DNA of 5,244 nucleotides from Muribaculaceae bacterium (GTDB taxonomy: Bacteria; Pseudomonadota; Alphaproteobacteria; Rs-D84), in assembly GCA_023665245.1 (NCBI GenBank), contig JAMPEH010000184.1:1-5244 (forward strand), given 5' to 3'. The notes beneath the pieces were generated by a model. It had not been told where the DNA came from and ran no database searches. It was given only the letters and a program-made list of their open reading frames with translations. Both the position numbers and the translations under genes were made by a program. This document shows, piece by piece, positions 2-5,205 of this stretch (positions within the stretch are counted from its first letter, which is position 1; every line of letters begins with the position of its first letter).

Positions 2-802
2 CGTAGTATCGAGGATCGGGAGGTAACCAAAACCACCGTTACGGTGAATACCGCAAACGGCGAGGAGCATGAAGTCACCACCACAACGATTGAGAAATTC
101 GCCGTCTACACGATTTCATATAACGGCGAAGTTTATTTTGCCGAGAATGTCTTTCATTTAACGGCAGAACAGAAAACGCTGGCAAATGACTATGCGTATA
201 ATCTCAGCCTGTTTCTGGGCGACAGTATGTTTCAGGGCTTGCCCGAAGGGTACAAAACCATTACGCCGCTCGGGGACATTCGTTTTACCGATGGGCAAAC
301 TGCGGTTGTTTACTTCAATCAGACAGACGAGCGATATGCCGGTCAACCCTACGGTACGGACAATATCGGCGGATACGGCTGCGGGCCGACCTCTATGGCA
401 ATGGTTGTATCTTCGCTGACAGATAAAACCGTCGATCCGGTTGAAATGGCAAAATGGGCGTATGAAAATGGTTATTGGTGCGCCGGAAACGGCTCCTATC
501 ATTCGCTGATTCCCGGTGCGGCTAAAGCGTGGGGGCTTGCGGTTGAAGGCTGCGGCAAGGAGGACGGACAAAAAATCGTAGATGCACTGGCGGAGGGAAA
601 ATTGGTCGTTGCCATTATGACGAAAGGCCATTTTACAAGCAGCGGCCATTTTATCGTTCTCCGCGGCGTCAAGGACGGTCAAATTCTCATTGCCGACCCT
701 TTCAGCTATGACCGCAGCCAAATGACATGGGAACTTTCCCTTATTCTAAACGAAGCCGGCTCGTATGCCGCAGCAGACGGTCCGTTCTGGATTATCGGTT
801 AA
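2..802 (+). CDS. C39-like cysteine peptidase domain, C-terminal part of a larger ICE protein (5' partial)
   Basis: The reading frame is open to the left edge with no stop, so this is the last 266 codons of a longer protein. A GTG at 44 is in frame but lacks a ribosome binding site and is probably internal. Counting from that GTG, residues 19-90 form a beta-rich lead-in (YTISYNGEVYFAENVFHL) and about 90-252 form a papain-like C39_2 type domain. The likely catalytic residues are Cys113 in GYGCGPTSM (codon 380-382), His202 in SSGHFIVL (647-649) and Asp218 in IADP (695-697), in the usual C...H...D order. The protein ends in FWIIG. In Clostridia ICEs a protein with this ending sits just before virB4; I recall it as the CD1108-type mobile element protein. 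Because of this position, a role in opening the wall or processing a surface component during conjugation is inferred. No C39 ABC transporter is visible here, so bacteriocin-leader processing is unlikely. Domain call is good; substrate is unknown. Confidence 0.85.
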   Translation, partial: RSIEDREVTKTTVTVNTANGEEHEVTTTTIEKFAVYTISYNGEVYFAENVFHLTAEQKTLANDYAYNLSLFLGDSMFQGLPEGYKTITPLGDIRFTDGQTAVVYFNQTDERYAGQPYGTDNIGGYGCGPTSMAMVVSSLTDKTVDPVEMAKWAYENGYWCAGNGSYHSLIPGAAKAWGLAVEGCGKEDGQKIVDALAEGKLVVAIMTKGHFTSSGHFIVLRGVKDGQILIADPFSYDRSQMTWELSLILNEAGSYAAADGPFWIIG

Positions 803-827: not shown

Positions 828-992
828 ATGTATGTTTTAATTTTTATTTTAGGAACTCTTCTCGGCGGCTTGCTTGCCTTTTGCTTCTTCTGTATGTTTG
901 CCATAAATGCACCGGAAGCAGGGGCGGAGCGCCGTTTTATTGAGAAACAAGAACGAACCAAGGAAGGAGGACACCGTGAATCGTCAAAATGA
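828..992 (+). CDS. Small single-pass membrane protein, DUF3789-like
   Basis: This is a 54-residue protein starting at ATG 828, preceded by AAAGGA at 815-820 with a 7-base spacer. Residues 2-26 are one hydrophobic helix (MYVLIFILGTLLGGLLAFCF...) with small-residue packing positions G9, G13, G14 and two cysteines, C19 and C22. The remaining ~28 residues are charged and hydrophilic (RRFIEKQERTKEGGHR). The positive charges suggest a cytoplasmic tail, with the N-terminus outside. Length, glycine pattern and position immediately before virB4 match my memory of DUF3789, a tiny membrane protein family of Firmicute mobile elements with no established function. It starts 25 bases after the peptidase stop, and its last 17 bases overlap the virB4 start, so translation of the two is probably coupled. 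It may be a membrane subunit or assembly factor of the mating channel; this is inference from context only. Confidence 0.75.
   Translation: MYVLIFILGTLLGGLLAFCFFCMFAINAPEAGAERRFIEKQERTKEGGHRESSK
961..970 (+). promoter_or_regulatory. Ribosome binding site fixing the GTG start of virB4
   Basis: AGGAAGGAGG lies 5 bases before GTG 976 and inside the coding sequence of the preceding small membrane protein. It rules out the in-frame ATG at 907, which has no comparable site, as the start of the VirB4 protein. Confidence 0.85.
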
Positions 993-3918
993 ATACGAGA
1001 CCTATTATATCCCGCCGAATTTCATTGAGGGCAGCACCCTGTTCGGTGGGATGTTCAAACTGCGGAATGTCATAGAAGCCGGTATTCTTGCCGCCGTAAT
1101 CGGCGTGTCCATTATTTTTCTGGAGCTTTCGCTTACAGTCCGTATCATCCTGTTATGTCTCACCGCACTCCCTGCGGCGCTTATTGCGCTGATCGGGATT
1201 TCCGGCGAATGCCTTTCTTCCTTTGTCCTGTCCTTCTTCAAGTTTCTGTTCAGTCGGCGTGTGATCGGCAAGACGGAAGAAAAGAAAGAAAAATCGGCAA
1301 AGAAGCCCCAAAAACCAATAGAGAAAGAAACACCGCCTGCGGATACTGCGGAAGCCTCCATGCTTTCGGAAATTCTGGCGGTTATCCGTAAACGCTCGGC
1401 ACATAAGGAAAAACCAAAAAAGGAGCTGGTAAAAGCCGCTGAAACGAAAAAAAGCAAGAACTCGCCGCGTAGAGGAAAAACGGAATCCAAGTATCTGAAT
1501 CCCGCAGCAGAATATCTGCCGGTTGAGAAAATCGAGAACGGCATTATCTATACCAAGGATCACCGCTATATCAAGGTGATTGAGGTCGTACCCATTAACT
1601 TTCTGCTGCGCAGCGGCAGAGAACAGCGGAATATCATCTATTCCTTTATCTCGTATCTGAAAATCAGCCCTGTCAAAATCCAGTTTAAGGTGCTGACGAA
1701 ACGTGCGGACATTAACCGCCATTTGGATATTGTGAAAAAGGAGATGGCACAGGAAACCGATCCGAACTGCCGTATGCTTCAGGAGGATTATTTGCATTTG
1801 ATAGACCGCATCGGCTCCAAAGAAGCGACTACCCGCCGCTTTTTTATTTCCTTTGAATATGAATCCATGGGAAGACGCAGCGGCGGCGAAGAGGACGATG
1901 CTATCGCTTCCTTGCAGGTTGCGGCCCGCACAGCGATGAACTATTTAAAGCAATGCGGAAACGAAGTCGTTACGCCGGAGAACGAGGATGAATTCACGGT
2001 GGATGTACTGTATAACATTCTCTGCCGTCAAAGTAGCGCGGATATCCCTCTTGCACAGCGAGTGCAGAATGTGGTGTCCGATTATCTGGCGGCCGGCAAA
2101 GACACGGAGAATATTCCGAGCGCCGAATTTTTCGCTCCGAAGCAAATCGACTGCACGCACGGTAAATACATCTGCGTGGACGGGCTGTATCACAGTTATT
2201 TGATGATCCCGTCCTTCGGGTACAAATCACAGGTTACCGCCGGGTGGCTGAGCCTGATTGTCAACGCCGGGGATGGGATTGACATGGATTTGTTTCTGTC
2301 CAAACAGCCGAAAGAGCGCATGGTGCAGAAGCTCGGACAGCAGATACGCATCAACCGTTCTAAAATCAAGGAAACGAGCGATACAAATACGGATTTTGAC
2401 GACCTGGACAGCGCTATCCGAAGCGGATATTTCCTAAAAAACGGTCTTGCCAACAACGAGGATTTTTACTATATGAATCTGCTGATTACGATTACGGCAG
2501 AAACGCCGGAGGATCTGGAATGGCGGGAACGGGAAATGCGCAAGCTGCTGCTTTCCCAGGACTTGAATATCGTGACCTGCTCTTTTCGTGAGGAGCAGGC
2601 TTTTTTATCGGCTCTGCCGCTGGTATCGATGGAAAAGCATTTGTATGAGCGTTCCAAGCGCAATGTGCTGACCTCTGGTGCGGCAAGTTGCTATCCCTTT
2701 ACCGCCTATGAGCTTTGTGACGACAACGGAATCATGCTGGGGGTAAACAAATTCAATAATTCGCTGACTATCGTAGATATTTTCAATTCCCGCAATTACA
2801 AAAACGCCAATATCAGCATTATGGGGACTTCGGGAGCCGGAAAAACCTTCACGATGCAGCTAATGGGACTGCGTATGCGGCGAAAAGGGATACAGGTATT
2901 TGTAATCGCACCGCTGAAAGGACACGAATTTCACCGTGCCTGCACCAATATCGGCGGCGAATTTATTTCTATCTCTCCCGCTTCCAATACCTGCATCAAT
3001 GTAATGGAGATACGCAAGGTGGACAAAAGCGTAGACGAACTGCTGGACGGCGGCGGAGTGGAGCGTTCCGAGCTGGCGTCAAAAATACAGCAGCTACATA
3101 TCTTTTTCAGTCTGCTGATACCGGACATTACGCACGAGGAACGGCAGCTTTTAGACGAAGCGCTGATCCGTACATACGCCGCAAAAGGTATCACGCACGA
3201 TAACGATTCGCTGACCGATCCCGATCACCCGGATAAATATAAGGAAATGCCGATTCTTGGAGACTTATACGATGTGCTGATTGCATCACAAGAAAGAAAG
3301 CGACTGGCAAATATTCTGAATCGCCTTGTTCACGGCTCGGCGCAGACCTTTTCCCGTCAGACCAATGTGGATTTGGACAACAAATATACGGTTTTGGATA
3401 TTTCCGAGCTGACCGGTGATCTGTTGACAGTAGGAATGTTTGTGGCACTTGATTTCGTATGGGATAAGGCAAAGGAAAACAGAGCGGTCGAAAAGGCAAT
3501 TTTTATCGACGAATGCTGGAAGCTGATCGGCGCCGGCAGTAATCGTCTTGCCGCCGAGTATGTGCTAGAGATCTTCAAAATCATCCGCGGTTACGGCGGC
3601 TCGGCTGTCTGCGCCACACAGGACATTAACGACTTTTTTGCCTTGGAGGACGGAAAGTACGGCAAAGGTATAATCAACAATTGCAAGACTAAAATCGTGC
3701 TGAACTTGGAGGACGACGAAGCCCAGCGGGTACAGTCGATTATGCGGCTGTCCGAAGCGGAGGTGATGGAGATCACGCACTTTGAGCGTGGCAACGGCTT
3801 GATTTCTACGAACAACAACAATGTCACGGTAGAGTTTAAATGCAGTGATTTGGAAAAGAGTCTGATTACGACCGACCGCCGTGAGCTTCAGGAATTGATC
3901 GAGCAGAAAAGGACGTGA
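976..3918 (+). CDS. virB4: PrgI-VirB4 fusion: type IV secretion conjugation ATPase (CD1110-like)
   Basis: This is a 980-residue ATPase that would power assembly or substrate transfer of the conjugative type IV secretion system at the inner face of the membrane. Residues ~7-98 resemble a PrgI-family domain: YYIPPNFI and LFGGMFKLRNVIEAG, then two membrane helices (~33-50 and ~57-75) and a FLFSRRVIGK end. Residues ~99-172 are a Lys/Glu-rich, probably disordered linker. Residues ~180-590 are the VirB4/CagE/TrbE N-terminal region (EYLPVEKI, GIIYTKDHRYIKVIEVVPINF). The RecA-like motor follows, with Walker A GTSGAGKT at 617-624 (bases 2824-2847), Walker B AIFIDE at 841-846 (Asp845, Glu846), ATQ at 880-882 and ERGNGLI near 937-943. 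All key ATPase residues are present, so it should be active. The start is GTG 976, set by a strong ribosome binding site; the gene overlaps its upstream neighbour by 17 bases. Typical unfused VirB4 proteins are about 800 residues, so the extra length is the PrgI domain plus linker. Confidence 0.95.
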   Translation: MNRQNEYETYYIPPNFIEGSTLFGGMFKLRNVIEAGILAAVIGVSIIFLELSLTVRIILLCLTALPAALIALIGISGECLSSFVLSFFKFLFSRRVIGKTEEKKEKSAKKPQKPIEKETPPADTAEASMLSEILAVIRKRSAHKEKPKKELVKAAETKKSKNSPRRGKTESKYLNPAAEYLPVEKIENGIIYTKDHRYIKVIEVVPINFLLRSGREQRNIIYSFISYLKISPVKIQFKVLTKRADINRHLDIVKKEMAQETDPNCRMLQEDYLHLIDRIGSKEATTRRFFISFEYESMGRRSGGEEDDAIASLQVAARTAMNYLKQCGNEVVTPENEDEFTVDVLYNILCRQSSADIPLAQRVQNVVSDYLAAGKDTENIPSAEFFAPKQIDCTHGKYICVDGLYHSYLMIPSFGYKSQVTAGWLSLIVNAGDGIDMDLFLSKQPKERMVQKLGQQIRINRSKIKETSDTNTDFDDLDSAIRSGYFLKNGLANNEDFYYMNLLITITAETPEDLEWREREMRKLLLSQDLNIVTCSFREEQAFLSALPLVSMEKHLYERSKRNVLTSGAASCYPFTAYELCDDNGIMLGVNKFNNSLTIVDIFNSRNYKNANISIMGTSGAGKTFTMQLMGLRMRRKGIQVFVIAPLKGHEFHRACTNIGGEFISISPASNTCINVMEIRKVDKSVDELLDGGGVERSELASKIQQLHIFFSLLIPDITHEERQLLDEALIRTYAAKGITHDNDSLTDPDHPDKYKEMPILGDLYDVLIASQERKRLANILNRLVHGSAQTFSRQTNVDLDNKYTVLDISELTGDLLTVGMFVALDFVWDKAKENRAVEKAIFIDECWKLIGAGSNRLAAEYVLEIFKIIRGYGGSAVCATQDINDFFALEDGKYGKGIINNCKTKIVLNLEDDEAQRVQSIMRLSEAEVMEITHFERGNGLISTNNNNVTVEFKCSDLEKSLITTDRRELQELIEQKRT

Positions 3919-3924
3919 TGACCG

Positions 3925-3967
3925 TAATACGCAGTTATTACGAATTTAATGCGTATTAGCCGCATTA
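3925..3967. other. Overlapping inverted repeats, possible mutually exclusive hairpins
   Basis: TAATACGCA at 3925-3933 is the exact reverse complement of TGCGTATTA at 3950-3958, with a 16-base loop. TAATGCG at 3947-3953 is the exact reverse complement of CGCATTA at 3961-3967, with a 7-base loop. They share bases 3950-3953, so only one stem can form at a time. Neither stem is followed by a run of T, so a Rho-independent terminator is not supported. They may simply be a by-product of near-palindromic repeat units, or may act as an RNA processing or regulatory switch. Confidence 0.5.
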
Positions 3968-3997
3968 CACGGTTTTAATACGGACTTTATGCGTATA
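3925..3997 (+). repeat. Six phased 11-bp direct repeats in two triads (iteron- or operator-like array)
   Basis: The gap between virB4 and the next gene contains six tandem 11-mers. Triad one: TAATACGCAGT (3925), TATTACGAATT (3936), TAATGCGTATT (3947). A 7-base spacer AGCCGCA (3958-3964) follows. Triad two: TTACACGGTTT (3965), TAATACGGACT (3976), TTATGCGTATA (3987). The consensus is TAATRCGnAtT. T1, C6 and G7 are invariant; A9 and T11 occur in five of six. The whole triad recurs at a 40-base offset with 23 of 33 positions identical. The 11-base blocks on either side (3914-3924 and 3998-4008) do not fit, so the array is bounded. A period of one helical turn would put all units of a triad on one DNA face, as in known operator and iteron arrays. 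Its bound protein is unknown. The array ends directly at the ribosome binding site of the next gene, so control of that gene is the simplest inference. Confidence 0.8.
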
Positions 3998-4002
3998 AGG
4001 AA

Positions 4003-4007
4003 GGGAG
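4003..4007 (+). promoter_or_regulatory. Ribosome binding site of the DUF5697-like gene
   Basis: GGGAG (within AAGGAAGGGAG, 3997-4007) lies 6 bases before ATG 4014. It begins right where the last 11-bp repeat unit ends, so a protein bound to the array, or a hairpin in it, could influence translation or transcription of this gene. Confidence 0.75.
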
Positions 4008-4013
4008 ATACCG

Positions 4014-4532
4014 ATGAAAACCAGAGAACAGATATACCGAAAGGAAGCCGCCGAGCTTCTGCGGGACATTTCCACCTATCACTATATCCGGCACGATCAG
4101 CTTTTGCGGCTCTATCCGAACAAGACGGAAAAGATCGACAATCTTCTTTCCTACCTTGTCAGACAGGGACGCATTTTTTATGATTCCGACCGCGGTATGT
4201 ATCACGATGGAACGGAAGCGCAGCCGGATATGCACAGCATTGCCGCCTTATGGGTGCTGATTGATTTTATTGAAAAGACTGAGTATCATTCAGCCGCAGA
4301 GTTTCCCGCCAGCCTGATTTTCCTTGCCGGTGAGGAAATTTACGAGGTAGTCTATGTTTCATCAGATAATACGGCGCTGCTTGAACACGCTTTGGCACAA
4401 AACCAGCCGGACGGAAAACGAATCGTCATTACGGAGGATGCGTCGGTTATTCAGGCGCTGCGAATAGATGAAGTAGCAGCGTACTGTACCGTATCGGAAA
4501 ACGGACAGGTTCAGTATTACAAGCAAAGTTAG
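4014..4532 (+). CDS. DUF5697-like mobile element protein with N-terminal winged helix
   Basis: This is a 172-residue protein starting at ATG 4014 after a good ribosome binding site. Residues ~7-66 read as a winged helix-turn-helix: a helix (REQIYRKEAAELLRDISTY), the segment IRHDQLLRLYP, a recognition-type helix (KTEKIDNLLSYLVRQGRI) and a wing hairpin (IFYDSDRGMYH). Residues ~74-172 form an alpha/beta domain with strands such as EIYEVVYVSS and KRIVITED and a terminal GQVQYYKQ strand. The first part recalls the wHTH of replication-relaxation type mobile element proteins, but I see no clear catalytic motif. Sequence style and position match my memory of DUF5697, common in Clostridia ICEs and of unknown function. 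It lies just after the 11-bp repeat array and is followed after 10 bases by the next gene, so the two form a pair. DNA binding, perhaps to the array next door, is inference. Confidence 0.8.
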   Translation: MKTREQIYRKEAAELLRDISTYHYIRHDQLLRLYPNKTEKIDNLLSYLVRQGRIFYDSDRGMYHDGTEAQPDMHSIAALWVLIDFIEKTEYHSAAEFPASLIFLAGEEIYEVVYVSSDNTALLEHALAQNQPDGKRIVITEDASVIQALRIDEVAAYCTVSENGQVQYYKQS

Positions 4533-4542: not shown

Positions 4543-5205
4543 TTGGAAAGACAAGTCATATCACAAAGAATCGGGCGGATTATCGGTGACATCGGCAAGC
4601 TGCAAAACACGCTTTACGCCATGGAAAACACCGATATTCAGCAATACCCCGATAATTACGCTATGCTCTCTACCGACGCCGCATTGCGCAGCGAGCTGAT
4701 CGCCTGCCGGATACGGCATTTACTTTACGGGAGTACCAATGTAAAAAAGCCTGAATATTTAGCTTCGGCGGGCGTGGTACAGGGCATCAAAATTCAAGAC
4801 AATGATGGGATTCTTGAAATCACGCTACCGTGTCTCTTGCCCAAAAGAAAACAGCGGCAAAGTACGGAATTTCTGACCGATCCTGTTTATTTCACGCTCA
4901 GTCAGTATGCCGACTCCCATACGATGCCGCGATATGCGCACTGCGTTGTCTGCTTTTCGCATATTTACAGTCCGGAGCTGCCGAAACGGCGAATTCGGGA
5001 TTATGACAATCTGGAACTGAAACAGCTTTTGGATGTGATCGCTGCCTTTATTATGGAGGACGACAGCGGGCTTTTATGCGACGCTTATAACACGACCGAA
5101 ATCGGAGAAACCGACAGCACGCGGATTTCGGTTATGGATTGCAGCCGCTTTTCCGGATGGATCAAGGAGCGTGAAAATCGCCTGAAATCCATATCCGATT
5201 TTTAA
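4543..5205 (+). CDS. DUF6100-like protein with a RusA-like nuclease core
   Basis: This is a 220-residue protein beginning at TTG 4543. Residues 1-65 are mainly helical. The part from ~87 on follows the order of RusA Holliday junction resolvases: a first strand GILEITLPCLLPKRK (89-103), a middle strand AHCVVCFSHIYSPEL (132-146), the motif RRIRDYDNLELKQLLD (149-164), then IMEDDSGLLCDAY (170-182) and a closing strand TRISVMD. Compared with E. coli RusA as I remember it (RRRRDLDNLQK...DALT...LDDAQVVDY), Asp153, Asp155 and Asp174 fall exactly where catalytic Asp70, Asp72 and Asp91 are expected. The active-site Lys is displaced by one (Lys160 rather than 159). I recall the family label as DUF6100, frequent beside DUF5697 in Clostridia ICEs. 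A role in resolving or trimming branched DNA during excision, transfer or replication is inference. The N-terminal ~85 residues are additional to ordinary RusA (~120 residues). Confidence 0.8.
   Translation: MERQVISQRIGRIIGDIGKLQNTLYAMENTDIQQYPDNYAMLSTDAALRSELIACRIRHLLYGSTNVKKPEYLASAGVVQGIKIQDNDGILEITLPCLLPKRKQRQSTEFLTDPVYFTLSQYADSHTMPRYAHCVVCFSHIYSPELPKRRIRDYDNLELKQLLDVIAAFIMEDDSGLLCDAYNTTEIGETDSTRISVMDCSRFSGWIKERENRLKSISDF

Follow-up and report, generated by a model that had tools for sequence, protein, structure and literature searches.

A phased array at the virB4-DUF5697 junction

The stretch analysed here, 5,244 nt of contig JAMPEH010000184.1 (the window), is part of a type IV secretion system (T4SS) operon that carries a C39-like peptidase gene, a small gene, a virB4-like ATPase gene, DUF5697 and DUF6100. 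Its sole sizeable gap, 95 nt at 3919-4013, separates the virB4 stop codon (3916-3918) from the DUF5697 start (4014) and holds six 11-bp units: TAATACGCAGT (3925), TATTACGAATT (3936), TAATGCGTATT (3947), TTACACGGTTT (3965), TAATACGGACT (3976) and TTATGCGTATA (3987). This array at 3925-3997 is confirmed as real. The first-pass annotation had described T1, C6 and G7 as invariant, and the sequence agrees at all six positions; gene coordinates likewise bear out that the array occupies the only sizeable gap of the operon and stops at the ribosome-binding site of the DUF5697 gene (AAGGAAGGGAG, 3997..4007, forward strand, assigned from sequence).

The units are spaced 11-11-18-11-11 bp, one unit per helical turn, and fall into two triads on the forward strand, defined by sequence and self-identity. 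The first triad (TAATACGCAGT TATTACGAATT TAATGCGTATTA) spans 3925..3958 and contains a 9-bp outer inverted repeat, TAATACGCA/TGCGTATTA; the second (TTACACGGTTT TAATACGGACT TTATGCGTATAA) spans 3965..3998, at an offset of 40 from the first. The third unit of either triad extends to a 12-bp near-palindrome, overlooked at first, which is the best palindrome of its triad and was assigned no strand (TAATGCGTATTA, 3947..3958, position weight matrix (PWM) core 12.6 bits; TTATGCGTATAA, 3987..3998, PWM core 12.7 bits).

Self-identity of positions 3919-3999 at lag 11 was 0.486, compared with a shuffle mean of 0.257, and none of 5000 dinucleotide shuffles equalled it, the comparison by which the first-pass annotation had suggested that the periodicity might be refuted. 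At lag 40 the value was 0.634, again matched by none of 5000 shuffles and in agreement with the unit positions and the triad offset reported before. The maximum self-identity over lags 5-44 was matched by one of 5000 shuffles. In the rest of the window the top lag-11 value for any 81-bp stretch was 0.43. Tandem Repeats Finder gave no report for the array because its units are degenerate.

All four genes with family matches lie on the forward strand. Upstream of the array are a gene for a C39-like cysteine peptidase, belonging to the T4SS operon (2..802; PF13529, E 7.3e-22), whose 5′ end lies beyond the window, and a CD1110-related gene for a virB4-like conjugation ATPase (976..3918; PF19044, P-loop_TraG), which NCBIfam VirB4 models match below their cut-offs. 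Downstream lie the DUF5697 gene (4014..4532; PF18954, E 9.7e-49), encoding the proposed reader of the array, and the next gene of the module, DUF6100 (4543..5205; PF19595, E 4.9e-77). The predicted structure of DUF5697 consists of a winged helix (residues ~1-68) and an alpha/beta C-terminal domain; structure comparison of the predicted model gave weak matches of the latter to PD-(D/E)XK nucleases.

Recurrence of the array and its unit motif

The search for DUF5697 loci drew on GTDB genomes and on plasmid and phage records. The 103 matches (E<=1e-15) were reduced to 63 loci by removing those with <300 nt upstream, no start codon, or >90% ungapped identity to a retained locus. Forty-one loci form the core (E<1e-40), 39 of them with a gap of >=50 nt; the other two, L045 (gap of 26) and L047 (overlap), have no z-score. 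Where gaps exceeded 260 nt, the last 260 nt alone were analysed.

Lag-11 self-identity reached z>2 in 27/39 core gaps and z>3 in 22/39. In a control with the virB4 3′ ends next to the gaps, z>2 was reached in 0/24 core loci and 0/42 of all loci. When lags 6-45 were compared, lag 11 was the sole widespread lag among core gaps, with z>3 in 22/39 loci, and the runner-up, lag 40, reached this value in 5. The 11-bp phase and the CG core were kept in related elements while other bases drifted, the check that the first-pass annotation had proposed. The CG dinucleotide layout 11-11-(17-19)-11-11 was complete in 7/39 core gaps and had at least five members in 15/39. With virB4 upstream, 22/30 core loci reached z>2.

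A motif derived by expectation maximization (EM) from 45 gaps, WATRCGYATW, is a CG-centred near-palindrome. In clades picked by us from the tree (31/41 core loci), the in-phase unit was TAATACGnATTT in window-like loci (8 loci), TAATACGnnnnT in a second group (10 loci), ATACGTACA in the virB4-less clade (7 loci) and AWGRCGCCT in a fourth (6 loci). The array units are thus degenerate CG-centred palindromes whose flanks vary by clade.

A scan of 45 stretches (760,610 bases, with some overlap) returned 34 clusters of at least three motif sites. Twenty-two precede a DUF5697 gene, including a second DUF5697 copy on the same G011 contig, and 21 of these have at least one 11-bp step; no such step occurred in the 12 clusters located elsewhere. 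PWM clustering misses some arrays, and showed none for L004 and L013. High lag-11 identity was found in 158 of 351,477 81-bp stretches, arrays included and one N-containing locus excluded. In a 40-kb stretch of plasmid pMM35_02, where 17 annotated gaps were tested, the DUF5697 gap had a z of 5.3 and the second-highest gap 2.1. In one clade the module begins with DUF5697 behind a helix-turn-helix (HTH) gene pair instead of virB4, indicating that the array belongs with DUF5697 and not with virB4.

Co-variation with DUF5697 and a proposed operon switch

Co-variation was tested in the 26 of 39 core loci with virB4 within 260 nt and an identified DUF6100, with GC content at third codon positions (GC3) among the variables. 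CG-context distances of the gaps correlated with protein distances of DUF5697 (0.64), VirB4 (0.34) and DUF6100 (0.33). In partial Mantel tests, which measure association and not binding, with the other variables and GC3 held constant, the correlation persisted for DUF5697 (0.50, 0/2000 permutations) and disappeared for VirB4 (-0.01) and DUF6100 (-0.10). Without GC3, omission of L046, L048 and L098, of the GACGCC clade, or of both left DUF5697 at 0.43-0.54 (0/1000 each). A 29-locus test gave 0.355 (1/2000) for the winged helix-turn-helix (wHTH) part of the protein versus 0.154 (92/2000) for its C-terminal part. The letters of the array track the DUF5697 protein, and not VirB4 or DUF6100. This variation in step suggests that array and protein most likely act jointly as a switch.

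These correlations also bear on a rival explanation, in which some other regulator, from the element or from the host, reads the array and the array's link with DUF5697 reflects shared ancestry only. The module genes do have a common history (the correlation between DUF5697 and VirB4 distances is 0.49), some elements have a MarR-like HTH gene upstream, and the virB4-end control described below is weakly positive. We nevertheless regard this explanation as improbable, since, with DUF5697 controlled for, the motif is not explained by VirB4 or DUF6100, both of them direct neighbours.

We give even odds to the proposal that the wHTH protein DUF5697, encoded directly downstream, has its cognate double-stranded DNA site in the array, most likely for autoregulation. 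At this internal operon junction the array would most likely serve DUF5697 self-control of the DUF5697-DUF6100-VirD4 genes. In such a model, DUF5697 copies would seat on successive helical turns along one helical face, following the 11-bp step, and the 11-11-18-11-11 layout would place them in two groups of three covering the junction, presumably by cooperative binding. Rising DUF5697 might then act as a roadblock to elongation, or to ribosome entry, on the transcript arriving from the upstream T4SS genes, and the block would set the dose of the coupling-protein module (DUF5697-DUF6100-(unknown)-VirD4-S1 genes). The core of the first-pass proposal, a putative cooperative array for one of the element's own wHTH proteins, is supported in that the phase and CG core are kept and the drift of the other bases follows DUF5697. 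Of the several functions it had listed (operator, replication or partition site, processing region), the data agree best with operator-like use, without deciding the matter.

Several observations weigh against this model. Eight of 30 virB4-flanked core loci fall below z>2. Loci with the same flanking genes and no periodic repeat, which the first-pass annotation had considered fatal, do exist, yet as a minority, and four of the eight (L004, L015, L031, L041) still have motif sites. Neither array nor motif sites precede DUF5697 in L002, L003, L046 and L047. Core loci without virB4 upstream reach z>2 in 5/11, and the TACGTAC arrays of the virB4-less clade are loosely phased (z>2 in 2/7). For the 22 distant family members, none of 11 testable gaps reached z>2. 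The control pairing of virB4-end CG context with DUF5697 was weakly positive (0.21, 37/2000), so that part of the array-DUF5697 correlation may be background, and the co-variation test covered DUF5697, VirB4 and DUF6100 in elements that have further wHTH-like proteins (from the HTH gene and the gene before VirD4). A search for sigma-70 type promoters found none in 3700-4100 of the window and no convincing one at other virB4-flanked loci, where the best scores were equalled by 9 and 15 of 60 shuffles; a conserved promoter at the array is limited to the virB4-less clade. A classical operator would thus be without its promoter at virB4-flanked arrays, and control would act on read-through or translation and not on initiation. 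Terminator-like sites also occur in 1/27 array-positive core loci and in L011, and terminator and array are therefore not strictly exclusive.

Some distant DUF5697 members (L083, L080) have other repeats with the same core. In L083, six AATACGTATTTTG-like units with 20-31-bp steps lie ~40-170 nt upstream of DUF5697; the core is shared, whereas the spacing differs.

In the virB4-less clade, ten aligned leaders contain a sigma-A-type promoter (17-nt spacing), a GCTTATAGTTTTC-like segment, a GCACC/GGTGC terminator and then the motif array. Attenuator-like leaders of this kind were found in L010, L011, L012, L025, L029, L035, L093, L095, L096 and L097. The promoter scored 10 in six of seven loci (0-9 of 60 shuffles as good) and 9 in L095 (15 of 60). 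Its conservation is the stronger evidence, the score alone not being decisive. In L002, L003 and L046 the array is replaced, ~25-57 nt upstream of DUF5697, by strong intrinsic terminators that resemble one another and have related stems (AGCGTTCGG...CCGRRCGCT, followed by a T run); a terminator at this position agrees with a gate for read-through. L047 has neither array nor terminator before DUF5697. By reading of the sequence, L002 and L003 also carry a toxin-like gene between virB4 and DUF5697.

The array might instead work as RNA, with hairpins between virB4 and DUF5697 governing translation, processing or termination. On average the gaps fold more stably than shuffles (mean z -2.9, 32/49 below -2), and the palindromic units adjoin the ribosome-binding site. 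However, unusual structure is absent from several of the strongest arrays (window -0.9, L036 +0.9, L075 +0.4, L077 -0.2), some strong folding scores are due to terminators, and the window has no Rfam match up to E 1. RNA pairing, moreover, does not need a fixed 11-bp phase, and we consider an RNA role quite unlikely. The arrays of L007, L009 and L014 each contain a long inverted repeat about TATACGTACAG/CTGTRCGTATA, and their RNA folding z-scores are -5.3, -2.8 and -2.6, respectively.

Known systems and other possible roles

Phased sites for wHTH proteins are an array type already known. The wHTH proteins PhoB and OmpR bind operators with tandem half-sites 11 bp apart; as response regulators they have receiver domains, and their sites are linked to promoters, and neither feature was seen for the DUF5697 array. 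tubC/TubR is a centromere-like partition system.

BldC and RdfS are wHTH proteins that assemble head-to-tail along DNA (PMC6428758, PMC11963761), BldC on direct repeats at smeA-sffA with about one turn per subunit. Both are MerR-like or of the RDF (recombination directionality factor) type, and RdfS acts without apparent consensus, whereas DUF5697 arrays have a strict phase and a CG core. The wHTH protein TraN of pIP501 (PMC10877727) likewise comes from a Gram-positive T4SS operon, and binds its own-gene promoter as a repressor. It has two wHTH motifs, a preferred 34-bp site near the origin of transfer (oriT) and a named promoter of its own, while no promoter is detectable at the DUF5697 array.

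A parallel for a transfer function is TcpK of pCW3 (PMC6137059), a wHTH protein of a Gram-positive conjugative element that binds short tandem repeats beside its own gene. Its boxes, a pair of 9-nt repeats, lie downstream of tcpK within a mapped oriT; the DUF5697 array, by contrast, comprises six 11-bp CG-centred palindromic units upstream of its gene, inside a T4SS operon of elements with no known oriT, and DUF5697 has an additional C-terminal domain. With this precedent of a wHTH accessory protein and boxes adjoining its gene (PMC6137059), the array could be an oriT or relaxosome accessory site, at which DUF5697 brings element DNA to VirD4, encoded three genes downstream. The array accompanies the DUF5697-DUF6100-unknown-VirD4-S1 module also away from virB4, and the C-terminal domain weakly resembles PD-(D/E)XK nucleases. 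In 14 genomes and two plasmids, no PF03432 relaxase was found on the contig of DUF5697 within 45 kb of that gene (some contigs were short, and other relaxase families were not searched), and none was found in all of pMM35_02 (142 kb). Against this role, L002, L003, L046 and L047 have DUF5697 without the array, in elements known here from sequence, and a scan of 10-20 kb to each side of these DUF5697 genes turned up no phased array. The following module genes are present in L002 and L003. Neither a nick site nor a relaxase link was found. We therefore judge an accessory transfer role possible but unlikely. A more specific version, in which DUF5697, with its winged helix and PD-(D/E)XK-like domain, would load cooperatively on the co-evolving 11-11-18-11-11 array as a site of DNA processing and nick or dock DNA for VirD4, making the array an origin of transfer and not an operator, seems to us improbable.

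Partition systems offer a further comparison. The parC/ParR systems of R1 and its relatives also have direct repeats (11 bp in R1) beside the operon of their binder, and the usual position of parC is upstream of parM (PMC9426499). The array could accordingly be a centromere-like site read by DUF5697, as in tubC/TubR or parC/ParR. ParR, however, is a ribbon-helix-helix protein with a ParM partner (PMC9426499), whereas DUF5697 is a predicted wHTH protein in a T4SS operon. In all of the 12 loci compared for gene order, the gene following DUF5697 is DUF6100; the preceding gene, where sequence was available, is virB4, an HTH-linked hyp0 or a toxin-like gene, and no partition NTPase was recognised in these 12 loci. 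In addition, pMM35_02 has its own ParM locus elsewhere, and the family also occurs in contigs of 2.5-7 Mb. A partition role is consequently very improbable.

In the literature searched, which most subscription papers fall outside, DUF5697 is not named, and DUF6100 was not found together with 'integrative and conjugative element'. What appears to be new is the pairing of this protein with this site, together with the clade-specific letters of the site and its place inside an operon with no promoter in view. The family was found here in T4SS modules of Clostridia conjugative elements, many from gut samples, and the array gives DUF5697 a candidate partner site whose phase and letters are defined and for which nature supplies specificity variants (TAATACG, TACGTAC, GACGCC). 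If DUF5697 is autoregulatory, the array would show one T4SS operon split into separately dosed halves; if it acts in transfer, the array would point to the origin of transfer in elements without a nearby PF03432 relaxase.

Two further features were recorded. The gene between DUF6100 and VirD4 in L036 (21330-22448) has no Pfam or NCBIfam match and 1062 homologs among scored candidates, and its N-terminus looks wHTH-like by eye. In pMM35_02, a lone palindrome, TAATGCGCATTA (L109:7910-7921), lies ~59 bp upstream of the parM start.
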